A program made the position numbers and the translations under genes. Of a stretch of 64,000 nucleotides of DNA, positions 1-2,153 are shown in pieces. The notes beneath the pieces are model-generated. The model did not search any database. It saw only the letters and a list, made by a program, of their open reading frames with translations, and was not told the DNA's origin. Every line of letters begins with the position of its first letter. The first letter of the stretch is position 1. This DNA is from Tepidisphaeraceae bacterium (GTDB lineage Bacteria > Planctomycetota > Phycisphaerae > Tepidisphaerales > Tepidisphaeraceae): positions 1-64,000 of the forward strand of contig DASYHQ010000047.1 of NCBI GenBank assembly GCA_035998445.1, given 5' to 3'.

Positions 1-1
1 C

Positions 2-127
2 TTCGGCCACAGCCGGCGCATCAAACTGTGCTACGAGAAGTGCCACGCGCACTTCCAGGCGTTCCACGACCTGACCGCCGCGATGCTCTGTTACACCCGC
101 CTCCGCCACTACCGAAGCGGGTTGTGA
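2..127 (+). pseudogene. IS5/IS4-like transposase, C-terminal remnant
   Basis: A reading frame enters from the left edge and stops at a TGA at 125-127. The 41 residues begin FGHSRRIKLCYE and end in a helical, basic tail with an alanine/leucine stretch (DLTAAMLCYTRLRH). This is the pattern of the last helix of IS5-type DDE transposases, after the conserved GR-SRRL-DYE segment. Only the end is visible, so it may belong to a complete insertion sequence outside the window. It fits the other transposase debris up to position 1800. Family assignment is by pattern recognition only. Confidence 0.45.
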
Positions 128-499
128 AACAGGCTCTAAGCTATTCCCCGAGACTACGCTGGCCGCCGGGATCTCTCTATTCGTGGTGGGGCGATCGCAA
201 CGACCAGCTGAAGAAGTGACCTGAAACGTCTGGCCCATCGACGCTGGCAGACCAGCGGTGGGCAGCTCACGCGTGACAGCGAGCAGACCGGTGACGCCGG
301 CCCCGTCATGCGCAGTTAGTGTCCCTAGCTTGCCGTGGAGGATTTAGCGCGACGGCGGATTCTGCTCGCGCCAACAAGATGTCCCGCCCATACATGCGTC
401 TTTCCATGACGCTTCTGCCTACGCGGTTGCGTACGCTTTGAGCCCCGCAGGCTTCAGCGGAGGGTTGCATGGAAATGCCGACGTGTCCGATGTGCGTCA
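128..499. other. Non-coding or degenerate stretch, nothing recognised
   Basis: No reading frame here has a plausible start, ribosome binding site or recognisable protein. The minus-strand reading from the transposase remnant at 500-712 appears to run on into this stretch after frameshifts (for example SYSQFCVPYR near 500-530). The stretch is best read as decayed mobile-element DNA. Confidence 0.4.
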
Positions 500-712
500 T
501 CATCGCGATACGGAACGCAGAACTGGGAGTAGCTCTGCCGCGTGGTCGGGCGGAACCGGGCGTTTGCAGTGCAGCGGATCGTAAGCCCAGGCGAGCGGCC
601 GGTCGTGCCAGACGCACCAGAGGTAAAGCTTGACCACGAGCGCGTCGCTATAGCGAGTGCGTTGTCCCCGCCGCGGGACGGCCCGCGAGGCCGAGATCAC
701 GGCGTGACGCAC
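500..712 (-). pseudogene. DDE transposase N-terminal remnant, frameshifted
   Basis: The minus-strand frame contains RRGQRTRYSDALVVKLY and WCVWHDRPLAWAYD. These match the opening of a DDE transposase family common in planctomycetes (a basic lead, TYSDALI-K-F, then W--HDRP--WA). The frame stops at 500, but the +1 frame continues with SYSQFCVPYR, which resembles the next family motif (LPS-SQF-RR). One or more frameshifts have therefore broken the gene, and no DDE catalytic core is visible. This is a second, separate transposase fragment in the first 2 kb. Confidence 0.5.
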
Positions 713-935
713 CTGGGTGCCAGGTCGCGCGGCCCATACATGCTCCTTTGTAGTTCGTGTCGCCGAAAATGGTCGGTGTGACGCTGATACTCCGCATCCG
801 AGTACGGCTCCTCGCGAAAGGGGCGGGTCGTATCAACCGCGACGTACCGGCCGGTCACATCCATCGTGCAATGCCAGAGGACATCGCTGTGCCACCGAAG
901 CCGGGCTGGCCGGCCATCGGCGAACACCGAGCGTT
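713..935 (-). other. Unrecognised protein-like minus-strand frame
   Basis: A minus-strand frame (697-945) reads DGRPARLRWHSDVL, then GRYVAVDTTRPF and DAEYQRHTDHFRRHE. The composition is protein-like, but I do not recognise the family. It abuts the C-terminal end of the CBM9 fragment in a different frame, so it may be the frameshifted continuation of that gene or of a transposase. Near 745 on the minus strand an AAAGGAG sequence precedes an ATG, but the frame behind it soon becomes transposase-like. I regard the stretch as decayed coding DNA. Confidence 0.2.
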
Positions 936-1336
936 TCAGCCGCATCGGCGCCGGCGAGCGTGCGGACGCGGTACTTGCCGCTTTTCAGCGTAGTCGCCGG
1001 TTTGGGTGAAGGGGACGTCACGGTCGTTGGTGAAGAACTGGAAGGCCAAGTCCGTCCCGTCCGCCAGCCTCAGGCCGAGTTCTGCGACGGGGATGCGGAT
1101 CTCCAAGCGGTAGCCCCCCTTGACGGGGCCACCGGAGATCGCGGGCTGGACCTTCTTGTCCTTCCACCCGCCATGACCCACCACCAGCGACCGTGGCTTC
1201 TCGTCCTTGGAACCGGCGATGCCGGGGGCGATCAGGACCTGCAGGTATTCGGTCGTGCCGACGCGCGGCGCGACAAACAACTCGATTGAGTCGCCGCGGT
1301 GAATCGCGCCCGGCTCGTGCCGTTCGGCGTCCTGCA
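936..1336 (-). pseudogene. CBM9-like carbohydrate-binding domain, broken fragment
   Basis: The minus-strand frame reads QDAERHEPGAIHRGDSIEL, then FVAPRVGTTEYLQVLIAPG and a beta-rich segment ending near DLAFQFFTNDRDVPF. This is the second half of a CBM9-type (DOMON-like) domain, as found at the ends of planctomycete glycosidases and secreted hydrolases. The first half, PAELRVGWDDAGLLLF, lies immediately next to it but on the opposite strand (see 1329-1393). The frame stops at 936 without a plausible protein C-terminus. The domain would bind polysaccharide outside the cell, but the gene is clearly non-functional as it stands. Confidence 0.6.
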
Positions 1337-1393
1337 GAGCTGCGCGTCGGTTGGGATGACGCCGGCCTGCTGCTCTTCGTCGACATGCAGGAC
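1329..1393. repeat. 49-bp inverted segment flanked by 8-bp inverted repeats
   Basis: GTCCTGCA at 1329-1336 and TGCAGGAC at 1386-1393 are perfect inverted repeats around a 49-bp centre. The centre encodes the first half of a CBM9 domain on the plus strand, while the rest of the domain is on the minus strand to the left. Flipping the centre on paper joins LRVGWDDAGLLLFVDMQD in frame to AERHEPGAIHRGDSIEL on the minus strand. That reading is exactly what an intact CBM9 domain looks like. An old inversion, a phase-variable switch or an assembly error could each produce this. Confidence 0.6.
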
Positions 1394-1563
1394 ATCGCCG
1401 CCCTCGTTGCCGGGTACTCCGCGACCACCTTCAAAGCCGAGCTATACCATTTCGGTGAAGGGTCGCGTTCCGACGAGCAAACCGTGCAGCTTGGCTCGGG
1501 CGAACAGGTGAAGCTCACGCTTCCCTCGAAGCGCCTGATCGTCGTGCGGATCGAGCCCGCACC
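1394..1563 (+). pseudogene. Glycoside-hydrolase-like C-terminal beta-sandwich fragment
   Basis: The plus-strand frame reads ATTFKAELYHFGEG, then QTVQLGSGEQVKLTLPSKR and LIVVRIEP. This is the usual closing beta-strand pattern of glycoside hydrolases, in which a short accessory sandwich ends in a hydrophobic strand followed by Glu-Pro. There is no start codon and no catalytic domain. The frame continues unproductively to 1981. It adjoins the inverted CBM9 segment, suggesting that a carbohydrate-active gene was scrambled here. Assignment is by pattern only. Confidence 0.35.
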
Positions 1564-1604: not shown

Positions 1605-1802
1605 TTGTCGGTCGTGATACTACCGGAGGCCAAGCTTGGGTTCATCCTACTGCTGGGTCGGTGGGTCGCGGAACGCGGCCTCGCGTTGCTCGCTCGGTTC
1701 CGTCGACCGGCAAGAGTCTGCGAGCGGCTGGTGTCGACGCTGAAAGGCATACACCCGATCGCCTTCACCATTGTTATGCTGGCGCAACTCGCCAACTGGA
1801 AT
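1605..1802 (+). pseudogene. IS5-family transposase C-terminal remnant
   Basis: The frame reads LPEAKLGFILLLGRWVAERG, then LARFRRPARVCERL and a hydrophobic helix IAFTIVMLAQLA. This matches the final part of IS5-family transposases: GF-LLPRRWVVERS-AWL-R-RRLA-DYERL followed by a membrane-like helix. Several substitutions at conserved positions (RWVAERG for RWVVERS) indicate decay. The frame runs on to 2081 with no further family resemblance. It is the third transposase trace in the putative island. Confidence 0.6.
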
Positions 1803-1860: not shown

Positions 1861-1961
1861 TGTATCCGCGGCGTGCTCAGCTCAGATTACACCCTGTCGT
1901 TATGATGGCGGGCGGGCTGTATCCGCTTTTGTATCCGCTAATCGCGGTTATCTGTATCCGC
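1861..1961 (+). repeat. Four exact TGTATCCGC 9-mers
   Basis: TGTATCCGC occurs at 1861-1869, 1918-1926, 1930-1938 and 1953-1961, always in the same orientation, and three copies fall within 44 bp. A partial complement, GCGGAT, lies at 2022-2027 just before the tRNA fragment. Repeats of this size and spacing beside a tRNA attachment scar resemble the arm-type sites that tyrosine integrases bind, but this role is inferred from position only. Confidence 0.5.
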
Positions 1962-2030: not shown

Positions 2031-2077
2031 TTGGCCTCCGAAGCCGAAGGTTACAGGTTCGACCCCTGTCGGGCACA
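2031..2077 (+). tRNA. tRNA-Arg(CCG) 3' half, probable att site scar
   Basis: The sequence folds as the 3' half of a tRNA. There is an anticodon stem TTGGC/GCCGA around loop CTCCGAA (anticodon CCG), a five-base variable region and a T-arm ACAGG-TTCGACC-CCTGT. The 3' acceptor strand CGGGCAC and discriminator A follow. No complementary GTGCCCG acceptor strand or D-arm exists upstream, so it is not a working tRNA. Integrases commonly use tRNA 3' halves as attachment sites and leave such fragments at the far end of the inserted element. The orientation puts the element to the left, where the transposase debris is. Confidence 0.7.
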
Positions 2078-2153
2078 TTGATTTTCCCGCCTTAGATCGC
2101 CGCGATTGGCGATCATCCCGTACTGCAGAACTTTCGTTAGGAACCGCAGACCG

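Follow-up and report, generated by a model that had tools for sequence, protein, structure and literature searches.

Phase-variable inversions, or invertons, are described as short DNA segments that lie within inverted repeats, as in the PhaseFinder-type loci (PMC11892184). Template-switch micro-inversions and microhomology-mediated rearrangements (PMC7954356, PMC8755829, PMC3161906) are described as having short inverted junctions at which a few bases overlap. The locus described here lies near the start of a 64,000-nucleotide stretch of contig C47 from a Tepidisphaeraceae bacterium (the window), and it shares features with both of these systems. Like an inverton, it holds a short segment within inverted repeats; however, it has no sign of two orientations, no complete gene and no promoter-like site, and its repeat is short and common. 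Like the rearrangements in the micro-inversion reports, it has short inverted junctions that overlap by a few bases, but it adds a large internal deletion, and its mechanism would have to be read from one frozen sequence. The coding DNA resembles the carbohydrate-binding family CBM9_1 of Pfam (PF06452): relatives align along the entire preserved part, and the score of the frame obtained by reversing the segment on paper (the flipped frame) exceeds the curated cut-off. Unlike that family, the locus carries its domain as two pieces on opposite strands, without the N-terminal part and without the remainder of the protein. We conclude, with a probability of about two in three, that a rearrangement in what remains of one dead gene left the locus as a frozen scar.

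A strand switch within a CBM9 domain

We observed a perfect 8-bp inverted repeat, as the first-pass annotation had reported, with its left arm GTCCTGCA at 1329..1336 and its right arm TGCAGGAC at 1386..1393 (both given on the plus strand), and a spacer of 49 bp between them. The right arm forms the end of the first CBM9 piece, and it overlaps the probable native (R)-D codon of the C-terminal piece that follows. The repeat has no significance by itself, since 568 perfect 8-bp inverted repeats with spacers of 10-150 bp were counted in the window (9 within its initial 2.1 kb); it is therefore informative only through its position exactly at the strand switch. At a spacing of 35-65 bp the arm pair occurs twice in the 5.8 Mb genome, the other occurrence being in gene-like sequence on contig C23. 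No second copy of the locus was found in the genome in either orientation, and the assembly holds one copy in one orientation.

The first CBM9 piece, AELRVGWDDAGLLLFVDMQD (1334..1393, plus strand), is 70% identical to residues 76-95 of L026, a 980-aa protein encoded on contig C51 of the same genome, and scores 18.2 bits against a profile built from ten relatives. The second piece (AERHEPGAIHRGDSIELFV...FFTNDRD; 1017..1337, minus strand) is inverted relative to both the first piece and the C-terminal piece. Its frame stops at 939, and past this there is at most a possible, weak and frameshifted continuation to about 893 (residues 214-252 of L026 against 1006-893, E 1.7). When 1329-1393 is reversed on paper, the minus strand reads PAELRVGWDDAGLLLFVDMQDAERHEPGAIHRGDSIELFVAP... 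and the profile score becomes 99.0 bits, as compared to 65.3 for the minus half and 18.2 for the plus half as found. With Pfam CBM9_1 the flipped frame scored 27.3 bits and the unflipped one 16.2 bits, so that only the former passes the curated cut-off of 23.4 bits. These scores, together with the unbroken homologues, bear out the earlier proposal of a single CBM9 domain with one half on each strand, and the strand switch is real in the assembly.

The further proposal, that the flip restores an intact CBM9 reading frame, goes too far. The N-terminal part of the domain (profile positions 1-32) is absent in both orientations, and the frame concerned, of 164 aa on the minus strand (1430-939), is open in both as well; the flip alters only about 20 of its residues. 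The upstream edge of this frame is a stop, and neither a CBM9 N-terminus nor a leader was found upstream of it in either orientation. As it stands, no open frame at the locus holds a complete CBM9 domain, which is split across the strands.

We also searched the relatives for the unflipped domain, as had been suggested. Intact homologues with the domain unbroken are present on contigs C51 and C18 of the same genome (37-38% identity) and in the genomes of two relatives, G016 and G008 (33% identity). The alignment with the best of these, the C51 protein, crosses the flipped join without a gap. A search of 100 relatives, of the GTDB collection, and of 397 genomes from the class and 26 from the order gave no closer relative with an intact gene, the best being 31-38% identical over the domain.

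Three pieces that match one homologous gene

L026 matches all three pieces at the locus. Besides the first piece, its residues 90-199 align with 1346-1017 on the minus strand (E 1e-8) and its residues 898-949 with 1388-1537 on the plus strand (E 0.002). The C-terminal piece, DIAALVAGYSATTFKAELYHFGEG...VKLTLPSKRLIVVRIEP (1391..1561, plus strand), which the first-pass annotation had overlooked, is in frame with the first CBM9 piece. Among further family members in the class, it is 64% identical to L061 over 25 aa and also matches L062, both matches being stronger than that to the C51 protein; the C-termini of L061 and L062 end in ...RWLTPPRDIAALVA and ...RWLTSPRNIAALVT. The matches to these three proteins rule out the C-terminal piece as an unrelated gene.

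In L026, the CBM9 domain (residues about 75-228) and the C-terminal match (898-949) are on one strand. Since the first piece is in frame with the C-terminus at the locus also, it is the second half of the CBM9 domain that is inverted, and not the 49 bp. The idea of a 49-bp inversion thus found little support, as the 49 bp keep their native orientation to the C-terminus (1394-1561). In comparison to the 980-aa homologue, roughly 700-800 residues are absent between the first piece and the C-terminus. The locus has the make-up of a rearranged pseudogene remnant: three pieces that match one 980-aa homologue, in disrupted orientation, with the body missing.

Two side observations concern these proteins. 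Within the C-terminal remnant (1391-1561), about 28 residues of L062 are absent, in frame, which is a further internal deletion. The gene for L026 (L026:900-3839, on C51) encodes, beside the CBM9 domain, a long body and a C-terminus without a credible Pfam family; this C-terminus is common to L061 and L062, and so, by eye, is the body, while L061 and L062 show no CBM9.

Origin of the inverted repeat

We examined the bases of the two arms against the relatives. The residue that precedes the usual Ala of the motif A-x-[LV]-R-[LV]-G-W is most commonly D or E (11 of 25 relatives) and is Pro in none of the 25. The window has CCT (Pro) in this place, so on the plus strand CBM9 is an unlikely source for the outer GTCC of the left arm. 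On the minus strand, the left arm reads TGCAGGAC and gives the QD with which the second half of the CBM9 domain natively begins; the outer bases of this arm are likely to belong to the beginning of this inverted piece, where TGCAGGAC-GCC-GAA reads (M)QDAE. At the other arm, the native C-terminus starts (R)D-I-A-A-L, and the codons CGG GAC ATC GCC GCC of L061 overlap the right-arm GGAC.

The arms most likely arose as follows. The ancestor would have been a protein of about 900-1000 aa like that of C51, with an N-terminal leader, a CBM9-like domain, a long body and a C-terminal end. Loss of the body would have joined the first CBM9 piece (1334-1393) in frame to the C-terminus of the gene (from 1391), and the second CBM9 piece would have been set inverted on the other side, from 1337 down to about 1017. 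Each junction would show an overlap of about 3-4 bases, (T)GCA where the second piece is inverted and (G)GAC where the body was lost, and both overlaps together would yield the apparent 8-bp inverted repeat. The mechanism was probably template switching or end joining driven by microhomology, in DNA free of selection within the end of an island that is integrated at tRNA-Arg and holds transposase fragments. The identity, strand and frame of the three pieces, the absence of the other parts, and the island and insertion-sequence setting are observed; we infer in what order the events took place, by which mechanism, and that the pieces stem from a single gene copy (rather than from two paralogues). 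As the best intact homologue is only 31-38% identical, the bases originally present at the junctions are estimates. A two-step history, set out below, would give the identical sequence, and we disfavour it on parsimony alone. A frozen inversion by microhomology had been among the options listed by the first-pass annotation; the frozen microhomology rearrangement was well chosen, but the inverted part is the second half of the CBM9 domain.

We also considered that the 49 bp (65 bp with the arms) were truly inverted between the 8-bp repeats, in a gene that was already broken, and are now frozen. A CBM9 remnant would first have come to lie opposite to the C-terminal piece, and slippage during replication, or an exchange of strands at the repeats, would then have flipped the segment. 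This would account for a perfect repeat exactly at both edges, and for the continuous domain obtained on reversal, over whose join the best homologue aligns without a gap. However, it requires three novel adjacencies as compared to two, and with an outer half of the left arm that is not CBM9-like (Pro in 0 of 25), the repeat would have to be present by chance at the earlier junction. We consider a true flip unlikely.

Island and mobile-element setting

Decayed DNA makes up the first 2.1 kb of the window, and remnants of transposases and insertion sequences flank the locus on both sides. The contig breaks inside an insertion sequence, of which the 3' end of the transposase (DDE_Tnp_1) is at 1..141 on the plus strand, 99-100% identical to copies on C8 and C60. 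A repeat remnant at 516..755 (not assigned to a strand) is 75% identical to C13:9283-9519; it appeared transposase-like by eye and gave no match in Pfam. On the other side, a probable transposase remnant (1605..1800, plus strand) has a weak DDE match (PF13586, E 0.06) that is below the cut-off.

Beyond it, at 2031..2079 on the plus strand, 49 bp copy exactly the 3' end of the tRNA-Arg(CCG) gene (this end being C33:237126-237174), a probable attachment-site duplicate of an integrated island. Just inside this copy are four direct TGTATCCGC repeats (starting at 1861, 1918, 1930 and 1953, and spanning 1861..1961, plus strand), the only ones in the window. Two TGTATCCGC repeats (L064:334-353) were also found on C33, just downstream of the tRNA-Arg gene and between it and an integrase-like gene. 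From the tRNA-end copy and these repeats, the end of C33 and the start of C47 are probably the two ends of one island, a linkage that we infer across unjoined contigs.

This setting also bears on the option, rightly raised earlier, of an assembly artefact, in which a multi-copy insertion sequence nearby would have led to a chimeric contig end. Only 1.3 kb separate the site from the end of a contig that breaks in such a repeated element, and the genome has no further copy of the locus, flipped or unflipped. The junctions are, however, away from the repeated element itself, and the other remnants and the exact tRNA-end duplicate nearby are as expected of real decayed island DNA. An artefact is also unlikely in our estimate, to about the same degree as the true flip.

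Is the locus a phase-variable switch?

An intragenic switch that alters a CBM9 protein had also been proposed. What speaks for it is coding DNA between perfect inverted repeats, in a frame that is open in both orientations. However, neither orientation supplies the leader or signal peptide, the start of CBM9 or about 700 residues of the body; 8-bp arms are as common as the 568 pairs in 64 kb indicate; and the other closely spaced arm pair, on C23, reads like gene sequence. Scans of the locus for promoters and terminators gave no promoter-like site and no terminator, and no Rfam match was found near it. No invertase or recombinase was found beside the locus, the only candidate being the integrase-like gene, which lies at what is presumed to be the opposite end of the island. 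The flip would also not act as an on-off control of a gene or promoter, as the 164-aa frame is open and most of the protein is absent in both states. With no complete gene either way, no recombinase found beside it, no promoter-like site and a short, common repeat, the switch lacks support and is very improbable. Least credible of all is a still-flipping inversion at the 8-bp arms, mediated by the island integrase, that, with the frame kept, would exchange about 20 residues in a small protein expressed from the CBM9-like fragment.

A short inverted repeat may therefore result from microhomology junctions within a dead gene and not be the cause of a flip, which calls for caution with inverton calls made from an assembly alone. 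Beyond this, the locus has little significance; the more interesting by-product is an integrase-like family that adjoins three different tRNA-Arg genes.

An integrase-like family at tRNA-Arg genes

The integrase-like gene on C33 belongs to a family of proteins of about 500 aa, with members at L064:297-1949 (C33:237196-238848), C8:26487-27923 and C52:42731-44071. Each adjoins a different tRNA-Arg gene (CCG, ACG and TCG, respectively), and the other members are 47-50% identical to the C33 copy. When we examined the C33 protein in Pfam, PHROGs and the PDB, there was no significant match, the nearest being a weak one to the phage-integrase SAM-like domain (E 0.26). The members are probably divergent tyrosine recombinases with a specificity for tRNA-Arg. 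The TGTATCCGC repeats at both presumed ends of the island are candidate arm-type sites for an integrase, and a related motif, GTATCCG, is present near the tRNA-Arg(ACG) gene on C8, where both the motif and the tRNA are on the opposite strand.
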